The position numbers and the translations under genes were made by a program. Source: Acidimicrobiaceae bacterium (GTDB lineage: Bacteria; Actinomycetota; Acidimicrobiia; Acidimicrobiales; RAAP-2). Taken from it: a stretch of DNA of 32,064 nucleotides. The stretch is from NCBI GenBank assembly GCA_003138815.1, contig PLHD01000037.1, positions 1 through 32,064 on the forward strand, in the 5' to 3' direction. The notes beneath the pieces are model-generated. The model did not search any database and was not told where the DNA came from. It worked only from the letters and a program-made list of their open reading frames with translations. Below, one piece after another: positions 25,321 to 30,569 of this stretch (positions within the stretch are counted from its first letter, which is position 1; each line of letters starts with the position of its first letter).

Positions 25321-25385
25321 CAGCTCACCCTAATGTTGGGCGGTGATTCGTGAAATGTCGGTCCCTGGTAGGGCAGAATGGGGGA

Positions 25386-25844
25386 ATGCAGATTCCCGCC
25401 AAGGCCGACTACGCCATCCGTGCGCTCCTGACCCTGGCGGCGAGCGAGACCTCGGTGAGCGCCGAGCACCTCGCCCAGCAGCAGGAACTGCCGGCCAAGT
25501 TCCTCGGCGCGATCCTCTCGGACCTGCGACGAGGTGGGCTCGTCTCGAGCCAGCGCGGCCCCGAGGGCGGCTTCAAGCTCGCGCGGGACCCCGACACCAT
25601 CATGATCGCCGACATCCTGCGCATCGTCAGCGGCCCGCTCGCCGGCGTGCGCGGCATGCGCCCCGAGACCCTGCACTATGGCGGCGAGGCCACGCACCTC
25701 CAGGACGTGTGGATCGCGGTGCGGGCCACCCTGCGCGAGGTCCTCGAGCACGTCACGCTCGGCCAGGTGCTGCGCGGCGACCTGCCCGAATCGATCACGA
25801 GGTTCAGCTCCGATCCCGATGCGTGGATAACGCGGCACATTTGA
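25386..25844 (+). CDS. Rrf2-family transcriptional regulator without cysteines
   Basis: This 152-residue winged-helix regulator begins with the Rrf2 hallmark KADYAIRALLTLA (6-18), followed by the recognition helix AKFLGAILSDLRRGGLVSSQRG and the wing GPEGGFKLAR. IscR, NsrR and RsrR bind Fe-S clusters through cysteines in the dimerisation region. This protein has no cysteine at all, so it cannot sense by a cysteine-ligated cluster. It lies in the same neighbourhood as the suf genes but is not adjacent to them. ATG 25386 is chosen because the family starts a few residues before DYAIRAL. The stop overlaps the RNase HI start. Confidence 0.9.
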   Translation: MQIPAKADYAIRALLTLAASETSVSAEHLAQQQELPAKFLGAILSDLRRGGLVSSQRGPEGGFKLARDPDTIMIADILRIVSGPLAGVRGMRPETLHYGGEATHLQDVWIAVRATLREVLEHVTLGQVLRGDLPESITRFSSDPDAWITRHI

Positions 25845-26278: not shown

Positions 26279-26353
26279 CCCCGTTCCGGCGCTCTCCAGG
26301 AAACATTAGAATTCCATTGGTTTTCTCCGTATGAGCGAGTGAAGGGTCAGTCC

Positions 26354-27769
26354 GTGGCGAATGAGGTCCAGCAGTTTGATGTAGTTGTCATTGGGGGCGG
26401 ACCCGGCGGATACGCCGCCGCCCTCTACGCCGCGGCCGCCGGCCTGAGCGTCGCCCTGGTCGAGCGCGACAAGGTGGGAGGCACCTGCCTGCACCGCGGA
26501 TGCGTCCCCGCCAAGGAGTTCCTCGAGACCGCGCACGTGCGGCGCACGGTCGAGCACGCCGGCGACTTCGGCATCACTACCAAGGGCGTGAACGTCGACT
26601 TCGCCGTCAGCCAGGCGCGCAAGAACGAGATCGTCGATCGCCTGTTCAAGGGCCTGTCGGGGCTCCTCAAGGGACGCAAGGTCACCGTCTTTTCCGGCAG
26701 CGCCCGCCTGGACGCCGATCAAACCGTCACGGTGGTCGACGGCGCCGACGCCGGGGTCGTGGCCCGGGGAAAGAACGTAATCCTGGCGGCGGGCTCGGTG
26801 CCTCGCACCTTGCCCGGCTTCGACGTCGACGGCTCCCTCGTCGTCACGTCCGACGAGTTCCTCGACCTCGCAGCGCTGCCCGCGACGGCGGCGGTGATCG
26901 GCGGAGGGGCGATCGGCTGCGAGTTCGCGTCGATGCTCTGCGACATGGGAACCAAGGTCACCATCCTCGAGTTCCTGCCGACGATCCTGACGGGATGCGA
27001 TACCGAGGTCGTCAACGTGGTCGGCCGGGCGTTCAAGAAGCGCGGTATCGACGTGCGTGCCGGAGTCAACGTGACCGGCCACACGCCCAAGAAGGGCTCG
27101 ACAACCGTCACCGTCGAGAGCGGCGACAACGTCGTCGTGGACATGGTGGTGCTTTCGGTCGGGCGCCGTCCCTGCAGCGACGGGCTGCTGGGCGAGGGAA
27201 CCGGCGTGGTCGTCAACGAGCGAGGATTCGTCGTGACCGACGGCGCCCAGCGCACGGCCAGTCCGAACGTCTTCGCCGTCGGCGACATCGTGGCGAACTC
27301 GCCACAACTCGCCCACGTCGGATTCGCCGAGGCGATCGTCGCGGTGAAGACCATTCTCGGCGAGCCGGTCGTCCCGGTGGACTACGAGCGGGTGCCGTGG
27401 GCCATTTACTCGAACCCAGAAGTTGCCTTCTGCGGCCTCACCGAGGCCGCCGCGAAGGAGAAGGGCTACGAGGTCGTGGTCAAGAAGGACCCCTTCGGCG
27501 GCAACAGCCGCGCCCAGATCATCGGTGACACCGATGGCGTCGTCAAGGTCATCGCCGAGAAGCGCACCGACGGCACCGCCGGCCAGATCCTCGGCGTGCA
27601 CATGGCCGGTCCGTGGGTCACCGAGCAGCTCGGCGCCGGCTACTTCGCCGTGAACTGGGAGGCGACCGCGGAGGAGGCGGCCGCGCTGATCCAGCCGCAC
27701 CCTTCGCTTTCCGAGACGTTCGGTGAGACGCTCCTCGCGCTCGCCGGCCGAGGACTACACATTGGCTGA
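26354..27769 (+). CDS. lpdA: Dihydrolipoamide dehydrogenase (E3)
   Basis: This 471-residue FAD/NAD enzyme reoxidises the dihydrolipoyl group of 2-oxoacid dehydrogenase E2 or of GcvH. FAD is bound by VIGGGPGGYAAAL (12-24), the redox disulfide is Cys45-Cys50 in GGTCLHRGCVPAK, NAD is bound by VIGGGAIGCEFASM, and the catalytic His-Glu pair is in QPHPSLSETFGE. GTG 26354 is preferred to GTG 26339 because aaggg lies 8 nt upstream. A possible -10 box, tagaat, is at 26307-26312. The 3' end overlaps the E2 gene by 8 nt. Confidence 0.94.
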   Translation: MANEVQQFDVVVIGGGPGGYAAALYAAAAGLSVALVERDKVGGTCLHRGCVPAKEFLETAHVRRTVEHAGDFGITTKGVNVDFAVSQARKNEIVDRLFKGLSGLLKGRKVTVFSGSARLDADQTVTVVDGADAGVVARGKNVILAAGSVPRTLPGFDVDGSLVVTSDEFLDLAALPATAAVIGGGAIGCEFASMLCDMGTKVTILEFLPTILTGCDTEVVNVVGRAFKKRGIDVRAGVNVTGHTPKKGSTTVTVESGDNVVVDMVVLSVGRRPCSDGLLGEGTGVVVNERGFVVTDGAQRTASPNVFAVGDIVANSPQLAHVGFAEAIVAVKTILGEPVVPVDYERVPWAIYSNPEVAFCGLTEAAAKEKGYEVVVKKDPFGGNSRAQIIGDTDGVVKVIAEKRTDGTAGQILGVHMAGPWVTEQLGAGYFAVNWEATAEEAAALIQPHPSLSETFGETLLALAGRGLHIG

Positions 27770-28943
27770 CGTCACGCTGCCGTCACTGGGTGAGTCGGTC
27801 ACCGAAGGGATCATCACGCAGTGGTTCAAGAAGGTGGGCGACGCCGTGGCGCGCGACGAAGCGCTCTTCGAGGTGTCCACGGACAAGGTCGACTCCGAGA
27901 TGCCTTCGCCGGCCGCCGGAGTCCTCACCCAGATCCTGGCCCAGGAGGGCGACACGGTCCAGACTGGTTCGCGGGTCGCCGTGATCGACGAGAACGCAGT
28001 GGCGGGCTCGACCCCACTCAGCGCGCCGACCCCACCCGGCGCGCCGACGGCACCGACCACGCCGACGCCCCGCGCGGCGCCGGGCGCGCCGAACGAAGCC
28101 GAGGAGCTGGGCGTGGTGATGTCGCCCGTCGTGCGGCGAATCCTCGCCGACGGGGAGGTGGACCCCTCGACGCTGCGTGGTTCGGGACCCGGCGGGGCCA
28201 TCACGCGCCGCGACGCCGAACGTGCGGTCGCCAACGGCCCAACCGATGAGGTGCTCGTGCCCCTTTCCAACGGCCGCCGCCGCATGGGCCAGCACATGGC
28301 CTTGTCGGCCCAGACCACCCCGCATGGCTTCGTCGCCATCGAGGCCGACGGCGACATCTTCGCCAAACTCGAGTCCATGGGGCGAGTGAGCCGCGACGGC
28401 GTGGGCGTGACCGACGAGATGGTCGTTAGCCTGGCCGGCGTACGGGCGCTGGGGGAGTTCGAGTACTTGAACGCGACCTTCGCCGGCGATGAGCTGGTCG
28501 TGCACCGCAGCGTCAACCTCGGCTTCATGAGAGTGGTGGAGAACGACGGCATGCTCGTGCCGGTCGTGCACGCGGCGGCCGGCCTGACGCTTCGAGCTCT
28601 GGCACGGCGGGTCAGCGAACTCGGTGAGCGCGTCGCCTCGCACCACCTCACGACCGACGATCTCATGGGTGGGACGTTCACCATCGCGGGCGCGCCGAGC
28701 GAACACACCCTGACCAGCGTGCCGATCATCATTCAGCCCCAGGTCGCGGTGCTGTCGCTGGGCGCGGTTCGCCAAGTGCCGGTCGTCGTCACCGAGGACG
28801 GCGTGACGTCGGTCGAGGTCGGACGCCGACTCGTGCTCGGGCTCTCCTTCGACCACCGGGTCTGTGAATCGGTGGCCGCGGCGAGCTACCTCGAGCGGGT
28901 CGCGGAGCTGCTCTCGGGCATGGACCTGGAGAGCGAGCTCTAG
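27762..28943 (+). CDS. 2-oxoacid dehydrogenase E2 acyltransferase with altered active site
   Basis: This 393-residue dihydrolipoamide acyltransferase has one lipoyl domain (about 1-78; lipoyl-lysine Lys42 in STDKVDSE) and an Ala/Pro/Thr-rich swinging linker (80-112). A peripheral-subunit-binding domain (SPVVRRILADGEVDPSTL..., 121-157) and a C-terminal catalytic domain follow. The catalytic motif of E2 enzymes, HRxxDG, here reads HRVCES (His365, Glu369, Ser370): the His is kept but the Asp-Gly is not. The usual TFTIxNxG stretch is also changed (TFTIAGAPSE). The acyl substrate cannot be assigned, since no E1 gene is present. TTG start inside the lpd stop region. The next gene starts with no gap. 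Confidence 0.87.
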   Translation: MADVTLPSLGESVTEGIITQWFKKVGDAVARDEALFEVSTDKVDSEMPSPAAGVLTQILAQEGDTVQTGSRVAVIDENAVAGSTPLSAPTPPGAPTAPTTPTPRAAPGAPNEAEELGVVMSPVVRRILADGEVDPSTLRGSGPGGAITRRDAERAVANGPTDEVLVPLSNGRRRMGQHMALSAQTTPHGFVAIEADGDIFAKLESMGRVSRDGVGVTDEMVVSLAGVRALGEFEYLNATFAGDELVVHRSVNLGFMRVVENDGMLVPVVHAAAGLTLRALARRVSELGERVASHHLTTDDLMGGTFTIAGAPSEHTLTSVPIIIQPQVAVLSLGAVRQVPVVVTEDGVTSVEVGRRLVLGLSFDHRVCESVAAASYLERVAELLSGMDLESEL

Positions 28944-30569
28944 GTGCTGCGCCGACGCCACCTCGGGCGAATCACGTTCGCCGAGGCCAACGATTTCCAG
29001 CGGGCCCTGGTTCGTTCGAGCGACGACTACATCCTGCTGTTCGAGCACCCTCCCACCTACACCATGGGAATCCGCACCCAGGCCGAGCACTTCCTGGTGC
29101 CGCCCGAGACCCTGGACGCGGTGGTCATCGACGCCGACCGTGGCGGCGACGTGACCTACCACGCGCCTGGACAGGTCGTGGCCTGGGCTATCGTCACTGT
29201 CCCCGACGATCCGTCGGCGGGCAAGGCCCACGTCACCCGCCTCGAAGACGCGGTGATTGCGACGGTCCAGAGCTTCGACCCCGACGGCCACCTGGGCGTC
29301 GTCGGCCGCCTGGAGGGTTACCCCGGGGTGTGGGCCCACCTCGAGGGGGCCCCTGCCAAGATCGCGGCCGTCGGCGTGCGCACCGAGCGCAACGAGCTCG
29401 GTGCGCGTCGCACCATGCACGGGGTGGCGCTCAACGTCGACGTCGATCTCGCGGGATTCGGCTTCATCGTGCCCTGCGGCATCGCCGACAAGCCCGTGGC
29501 GTCGATGCACTCGCTCGGACTCTCCCCGACGTCGCTCGAGGTCGAAGAGCGCCTCGGCGACCAGCTCGAGGCCCGCCTGGGCGCCCGCGCCGCGGTGGCC
29601 CGGGTCGATCGCAGCGTCTCGACCAACACCGCCGAGCGCCCGCTGCTGCGCCGACTGCGCAAGGCCGGTGTCGATCCCGACGCGGGGATCCCGATACGCT
29701 CGCGCAAGCCCGAGTGGCTGCGGATCGAGGCCCATATGGGCAACGAGTTCCAGTCGCTGCGCACGCTCACCGAGGACCTGCGGCTGGTGACGGTCTGCGA
29801 GGAGGCGGGCTGTCCGAACATCTTCGAGTGCTGGAGCCAGGGCACGGCGACCTTCATGGTCAACGGCGAGCGCTGCACGAGGGCCTGCGGATTCTGCCTG
29901 ATCGACACCCGCAAGCCAATGGCGCTGGACCCGAGCGAACCCGACCGCGTCGCCGAGGCGGTGGTCCGCCTCGGGCTGCATCACGCGGTCGTGACGTGCG
30001 TGGCGCGCGACGACCTCGCCGACGGAGGTGCCGGGGCCATCGCGGCGACGGTGCGCGCGATACGCGACCGTTCACCCCAGACCGACGTGGAGGTGCTCAT
30101 CAGCGACCTCAAGGGCGACGCGGGCGCGCTGGAGCTGATCATCGATTCGCGGCCCGACGTGATGAACCACAACGTCGAGACGGTCGCGCGCCTGCAGCGG
30201 GCGGTGCGCCCGAGCGCCGGCTACCTGCGCTCGCTGACCGTGCTGGCGCGCAGCGTGGCGGCCGGGCTCACCACCAAGTCCGGCATGATGGTCGGCCTCG
30301 GCGAGACCCCCGACGAGGTGCACGAGACCCTCGCGGACCTCGCGGCAGTCGGGGTCTCGATCGCGACCATCGGCCAGTACTTGCGCCCCACCGAGCGCCA
30401 CCTGCCGGTCGCGCGCTGGTGGGAGCCCGCCGAGTTCGACGAGCTGGCCCGCTACGGCAGGCAGCTGGGCCTCGCTCACGTGCAGTCGTCGCCGCTGACA
30501 CGCTCGAGCTACCACGCCCGTGAGGCGCTCAGCGACGCGACGCCGGTGGCGGCTCCGACTCGGCGCTAG
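28944..30569 (+). CDS. LipB-LipA fusion: octanoyltransferase plus lipoyl synthase
   Basis: One uninterrupted 541-residue frame encodes both steps of lipoate assembly. Residues 1 to about 220 are LipB, which transfers octanoate from acyl carrier protein to lipoyl domains. RGGDVTYHAPGQ (67-77) is the family signature (usually YHGPGQ), Lys139 is in PAKIAAVG, and the acyl-thioester Cys178 is in IVPCGIADK. Residues about 250-541 are LipA, a radical-SAM enzyme that inserts two sulfurs. Auxiliary-cluster cysteines are 285, 290 and 296 (C-x4-C-x5-C), SAM-cluster cysteines 311, 315 and 318 (CTRACGFC), and the C-terminal RSSY is at 520-523. A linker of about 30 residues joins them. LipB and LipA are normally separate genes. 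GTG start immediately after the E2 stop. Confidence 0.92.
   Translation: MLRRRHLGRITFAEANDFQRALVRSSDDYILLFEHPPTYTMGIRTQAEHFLVPPETLDAVVIDADRGGDVTYHAPGQVVAWAIVTVPDDPSAGKAHVTRLEDAVIATVQSFDPDGHLGVVGRLEGYPGVWAHLEGAPAKIAAVGVRTERNELGARRTMHGVALNVDVDLAGFGFIVPCGIADKPVASMHSLGLSPTSLEVEERLGDQLEARLGARAAVARVDRSVSTNTAERPLLRRLRKAGVDPDAGIPIRSRKPEWLRIEAHMGNEFQSLRTLTEDLRLVTVCEEAGCPNIFECWSQGTATFMVNGERCTRACGFCLIDTRKPMALDPSEPDRVAEAVVRLGLHHAVVTCVARDDLADGGAGAIAATVRAIRDRSPQTDVEVLISDLKGDAGALELIIDSRPDVMNHNVETVARLQRAVRPSAGYLRSLTVLARSVAAGLTTKSGMMVGLGETPDEVHETLADLAAVGVSIATIGQYLRPTERHLPVARWWEPAEFDELARYGRQLGLAHVQSSPLTRSSYHAREALSDATPVAAPTRR

Follow-up and report, generated by a model that had tools for sequence, protein, structure and literature searches.

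Two successive reactions on one protein-bound chain assemble the lipoyl cofactor. In a 32,064-nucleotide stretch of DNA (contig PLHD01000037.1, assembly GCA_003138815.1, hereafter the window) from an Acidimicrobiaceae bacterium of the class Acidimicrobiia, a single open reading frame appears to unite the octanoyltransferase LipB with the lipoyl synthase LipA, which raises the questions of whether this union is natural, how widely it is kept among related bacteria and whether the two active sites cooperate. We conclude that the gene very probably encodes a bifunctional lipoyl-assembly enzyme, most likely of single origin no later than the base of the class and retained ever since. The features considered here are as follows.

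26339..27769, + strand: dihydrolipoyl dehydrogenase (E3), in the same operon by position (TIGR01350, 455 bits, cut-off 408.8)
27723..28943, + strand: E2 acyltransferase with one lipoyl domain, the probable substrate (PF00364, PF02817, PF00198)
28944..30569 (stop codon included), + strand: LipB-LipA fusion gene, 541 aa (TIGR and Pfam profiles; frame of relatives)
28944..29558, + strand: octanoyltransferase (LipB) domain, residues 1 to ~205-208 (PF21948, TIGR00214, alignment to 1w66)
29358 and 29475, + strand: codons of the LipB catalytic residues Lys139 and Cys178, respectively
29568..29636, + strand: junction, residues ~209-231 (length variable among families; model confidence lower at 221-230; protein-level constraint)
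29637..30533, + strand: lipoyl synthase (LipA) domain including its N-terminal tail, residues 232-530 (TIGR00510, alignment to 5exi)
from 29796, from 29874 and from 30501, + strand: LipA motif codons for Cys285/290/296, Cys311/315/318 and RSSY, respectively

One open reading frame carries complete LipB and LipA domains

The frame starts with GTG, comprises 541 codons and encodes a protein with a calculated mass of 58.6 kDa. Its LipB part passes the equivalog cut-off of TIGR00214 (116.7 bits; cut-off 83.55) and scores 84.7 bits against Pfam PF21948 (cut-off 27); against narrower LipB models (NF010925 and others) it falls below their own cut-offs. The LipA part passes the equivalog cut-off of TIGR00510 (335.2 bits; cut-off 310.25) and scores 60.6 bits against PF04055 (cut-off 29.5), and PF16881, the Pfam model of the LipA N-terminus, gives 26.5 bits, marginally below its cut-off of 27. 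The nearest solved structures by sequence are the M. tuberculosis proteins 5exi (LipA) and 1w66 (LipB), and alignment to the latter places K139 and C178 at the Lys and Cys positions of LipB, which in M. tuberculosis is a cysteine/lysine dyad enzyme according to a title cited within PMC12246082. In the LipA part, C285, C290 and C296 form the CX4CX5C motif of the auxiliary cluster, C311, C315 and C318 form the CX3CX2C motif of the radical-SAM cluster, and RSSY occupies residues 520-523; the accessible portion of PMC12246082 describes the roles of the auxiliary triad and of RSSY, which provides a serine ligand.

Conservation of these residues was assessed in 145 fused loci, which include repeats (L008, L009 and L119 are the window's gene) and represent 135 distinct proteins; 17 stretches of the class that were added later are in neither count. 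K139 and C178 are kept at all 145 loci and the six LipA cysteines at 144, the remaining row being a gap, and the tyrosine of RSSY is replaced in three rows and lies in a gap in three others. The initial annotation had read this frame as a complete octanoyltransferase with Lys139 and Cys178, joined to a complete lipoyl synthase with both cysteine triads and RSSY, and had placed it directly behind a lipoyl-domain E2. This description holds throughout: both domains pass their equivalog cut-offs within one frame, the catalytic residues and motifs are in place, and the stop codon of the E2 gene (the true start of which may lie downstream of the first GTG of its ORF) abuts the GTG of the fusion. We infer the LipB and LipA activities from family membership and expect the chemistry to be the textbook chemistry of both enzymes.

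The fusion is found in nearly all sampled families of Acidimicrobiia

Genomes were drawn at the level of the class, the order and the phylum, all within Actinomycetota, and a fusion was called either by our own frame tests or from a single continuous match free of stop codons. A match was obtained in 114 of the 119 genomes of the class draw, 112 of which carry both domains in one frame. The match was continuous in 87 of these 112 genomes (83 without a stop, and four with a reported stop that were then tested as fused) and in two pieces, tested as one frame, in 24; the last, G381, was tested as fused and is cut by the contig end. The exceptions are G398, where LipA is open to the contig edge, and G390, where a LipB frame of 267 residues (L218) has no LipA behind it, owing to either a real loss or a misassembly.

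Across all draws, 78 of the class's 83 family codes include at least one fused genome; f11, f37 and f46 had no match, and f55 and f83 were called neither fused nor split. No genome with only separate lipB and lipA genes was found among the class genomes tested. The order draw gave a match in 278 of 298 genomes, those with two matches being frame-tested only in part, among the matches listed. When 18 genomes (the unresolved families and two single-contig genomes) were re-searched individually, the junction lay in one frame in 17 of 17 stretches; G079, with its pieces on different contigs, stands outside these 17, and G127 (L234) has its junction in frame and its LipB part broken by a stop near the contig edge. 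Among 80 relative loci, both domains share one frame at 53 and do not at 25, and two contain LipA only. The 25 comprise 24 loci with separate genes, assigned by title to other Actinomycetota, and one MAG contig (L065; titled coverage 1.25) with a frame break inside LipB, near residue 140 and not at the junction. The fused set includes single-contig genomes (for example G030, G056, G158, G338, G026, G322, G164 and G292) and stretches of 33-37% G+C. The junction is thus confirmed in independent assemblies, namely in 112 of the 114 matching class genomes and in the 17 further stretches, and the stop or frame change between the domains that the initial annotation had considered as a sign of error was not found among the decidable class genomes.

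Two records were unusual in other respects. Besides its fused gene, G360 contains separate lipB and lipA genes, which lie in different frames on the 5-kb contig C83 (L181). The split LipA falls outside the fused group in the LipA tree, and this pair represents either contamination or transfer. A contig titled 'Acidobacteria bacterium isolate REEB88' (L056) encodes a fused protein 72% identical to that of the window, with E3-E2 upstream, and its Acidobacteria title is probably wrong.

Separate genes in other classes and the origin of the fusion

In classes other than Acidimicrobiia, the Actinomycetota genomes tested have lipB and lipA as separate, often adjacent genes. The phylum draw gave a match in 125 of 149 genomes: all 13 genomes of the window's class are among those shown fused, and in the 112 genomes of other classes no joined domains were found among the matches listed. 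Four genomes of other classes with long reported frames (G516, G442, G495 and G507) were examined as candidate fusions and none proved fused: in three, stop codons separate the two genes, and in one the stretch has no LipB match. A long reported open frame is therefore no proof of fusion. Of twenty further stretches from other classes, six have no LipB match; the other 14 match both domains, but never in the same frame. No single-piece match over both domains was found among the 30 of 213 plasmid records or the 5 of 13 phage records listed.

For phylogenetic analysis, 38 of the 135 distinct fused proteins (<70% mutual identity) served as representatives after fragments and X-containing rows had been dropped, and both trees were built by a quick method. 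In the LipA tree (38 fused and 51 separate rows) all fused rows lie on one side of a branch with an SH-aLRT support of 98. The LipB tree (38 fused and 41 separate rows) needs three changes between fused and separate labels, the separate long-branch rows L184 and L194 being placed among fused ones with branch support of 73 and 82; with the fused rows held together, lnL was +25 relative to the free tree, and this arrangement was not rejected (AU p 0.79). Mapping the fusions on trees, as the initial annotation had suggested, therefore yields one fused group that is clear for LipA and weak for LipB, and a single origin would be the simplest reading, fitting the two trees to the same unequal degree. 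Where the genes are separate (24 loci), the distance from the lipB stop to the first in-frame lipA start is 0-141 nt, and <100 nt at 21 loci; with neighbours so close, the loss of one stop codon would be an easy route to fusion. Most likely, at the base of the class or earlier, neighbouring same-strand lipB and lipA genes merged in a single event, and the product was then retained. Overall, the family profiles, the catalytic residues, the in-frame conservation in 78 of 83 family codes and the matches to solved structures support a natural fusion of a complete LipB domain with a complete LipA domain, which is real, old and conserved.

Predicted structure and proposed function

AlphaFold2 models were obtained for the window's protein (mean pLDDT 92.2, pTM 0.91) and for L173, which is 40% identical to it (mean pLDDT 92.4, pTM 0.92), from an alignment of 56 fused proteins, both models thus sharing one sequence set. 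For domains of ~210 and ~300 residues joined flexibly, a pTM of ~0.55-0.6 would be expected (an estimate from the definition of pTM and not a control fold); since both values lie well above this estimate, the two domains are predicted to be docked through a fixed LipB-LipA contact. In Foldseek comparisons the model resembled LipA (5exk) with a target-based TM of 0.93 and LipB (1w66) with a TM of 0.82.

In the mechanism that we propose, the LipB domain would take octanoate from octanoyl-ACP by means of Cys178 and Lys139 and attach it to the lipoyl-domain lysine of E2 or GcvH, and the LipA domain, with its auxiliary and radical-SAM [4Fe-4S] clusters, would then insert two sulfurs at C6 and C8. 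The window's genome (75 contigs, 96% complete) contains one PF21948 match, the fusion itself, and one match to the fusion protein; it also contains eight biotin/lipoyl-domain matches, some on other contigs, and one GcvH. The fusion is therefore the only LipB/LplA-family gene detected in the genome and probably provides its sole enzyme for de novo lipoylation; with one PF21948 gene set against several lipoyl/biotin domains and a GcvH, it must serve beyond the adjacent E2.

Contacts among lipoylation enzymes have reportedly been observed in work on E. coli. The docked models make direct hand-over of the octanoylated substrate between the two sites of the fusion more plausible. In its fullest form, which we put forward tentatively and consider rather doubtful, this proposal would have sites of fixed geometry octanoylate and then sulfurate one lipoyl domain without its leaving, as the main or only de novo lipoyl route of the class since its ancestor; if true, the docked form would show how free-standing LipB and LipA transiently meet elsewhere.

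A bifunctional enzyme does not, however, require hand-over, and there is a slightly better than even chance that the two domains act independently, the fusion fixing only their ratio and co-location. Loose tethering of this kind would suit the variable length of the stretch equivalent to residues 209-252, which ranges from 29 to 103 residues (median 54) across the 135 distinct proteins, and the biotin/lipoyl domains on other contigs, together with GcvH, indicate substrates other than the adjacent E2. On the other hand, pTM values of 0.91 and 0.92 predict a fixed arrangement in two members that are only ~40% identical, and the finding that no tested family has split genes only suggests that more than convenience is involved.

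The junction is very probably part of one protein

The initial annotation had described a linker of about 30 residues between the domains. A linker does exist, and its length is rather 20-25 added residues, because from about residue 232 onward, before the RKPEW motif, the fusion aligns with the N-terminal tail of free-standing actinobacterial LipA (from separate genes of Mycobacterium, Nocardia, Arthrobacter, Streptomyces and others). In a set of 38 sequences of >72% identity, the window's included, pN/pS was lowest in LipA (0.20) and LipB (0.30) and higher in the linker stretch (0.44) and its core (0.57); these ratios are rough because synonymous sites are near saturation (pS ~0.63). Judged by these ratios, the linker behaves as protein, under protein-level constraint.

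We consider it very unlikely that two proteins are made from this gene after all, whether because LipA translation starts internally or because the linker is cleaved. Although the linker has lower model confidence and contains in-frame start codons in 127 of the 135 proteins, no internal start is common to most members, and the linker pN/pS of 0.44 speaks for protein-level constraint, part of which the LipA N-terminal tail would explain. An SD-like 4-mer precedes a linker start in 43 of the 135 proteins (32%), compared with 555 of 2652 (21%) 50-codon background windows, in a test that is weak in that only 61 of the 135 genes pass it at their own chosen starts. The linker of the window's gene contains a single start codon, GTG at codon 218, and no SD-like sequence is discernible by eye in the preceding 18 nt; ATG265 lies inside the LipA domain. 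An internal LipA start was accordingly rejected as a candidate, no shared start with an SD-like site having been found by this weak test.

Both other frames are stop-free across the window's linker as well, so that an uninterrupted frame there is weak evidence on its own; the proof of the junction comes from relatives, among them the stretches of 33-37% G+C. The window's genome is a 75-contig assembly, but loss of a stop codon through an assembly or sequencing artefact is exceedingly improbable given the same frame in 112 class-draw genomes, single-contig ones and the low-G+C stretches included, and for the class as a whole sequencing error is refuted by the class-wide single frame.

Relationship to known lipoylation enzymes

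The fusion shares with LipB (TIGR00214; 1w66, 2qhs) the fold, the Cys/Lys pair and an equivalog score above the cut-off, and with LipA (TIGR00510; 5exi/5exk, human LIAS 8tsk, 9c19) the triads, RSSY, the fold and the N-terminal tail. Whereas both enzymes are normally free-standing, here LipB continues into LipA and LipA carries LipB N-terminally. The NCBIfam family NF053790 (LplA_LipA_fuse, bifunctional lipoate--protein ligase/lipoyl synthase) also has an attaching enzyme before LipA, but its N-terminal partner is named LplA, whereas that of the window is LipB, as judged by TIGR00214 and by its sequence matches to solved LipB structures. Against NF053790 the window's protein scores 348.3 bits, below the cut-off of 800, aligned to positions 330-605 of 606, and the reported alignment stretch covers the LipA part of the fusion only. 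The adjacent lipB and lipA genes of Actinomycetes (Mycobacterium, Streptomyces, Nocardia and others) have the same order and strand as the fusion but encode two proteins with a stop codon between them, where the fusion encodes one. In Shewanella, lipB and lipA stand together as two genes of the lipBA operon, and the 'fusions' mentioned in the accessible portion of the paper describing it (PMC4398509) are lacZ reporter fusions.

No description of a LipB-LipA fusion was found in the accessible open-access literature, including the available portions of PMC10332631, PMC3917532, PMC3904984, PMC6067878, PMC4921024, PMC12246082, PMC5962788, PMC12263773 and PMC4398509, and a report in subscription journals is quite possible. 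The surprise lies in fixation through a class combined with predicted docking, which makes hand-over testable: a natural joined and apparently docked pair offers a ready construct for solving the structure and for probing hand-over by competition. The fusion also provides a class-level marker, and its recognition gives a correct name to a protein that automatic annotation might, we expect, label by one half only. In UniProt, chains of this kind may already carry an automatic label as multifunctional fusions.

Genes upstream of the fusion

At 49 of 53 loci, an E2 gene ends no more than 170 nt before the fused gene; one of the four exceptions, L071, has only 43 nt of upstream sequence. At L080, L083 and L086, E3 directly precedes the fusion, with no E2 found in the 5 kb upstream. 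Of the 24 loci with separate genes, seven have an E2 upstream (at 0.8-2.5 kb), 14 have none, and in three the upstream sequence is too short.

A gene for an Rrf2-family regulator (25350-25844, + strand; 106.7 bits) precedes the window's E3-E2-fusion genes by about 0.5 kb, with a stretch that appears RNase H-like by eye in between. In IscR, cysteines hold an Fe-S cluster; the window's regulator, inspected by eye, is without such IscR-type Fe-S cysteines.

The usual acyltransferase motif of E2 is DHRxxDG. At ORF residue 376, the E2 of the window reads FDHRVCES, without the Asp-Gly; close relatives have FDHRVCEP, FDHRVCDP and similar forms, and most of the fused loci at greater distance show forms like WDHRAVDG. 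To judge from this motif, the acyltransferase of the window's genus may be altered.
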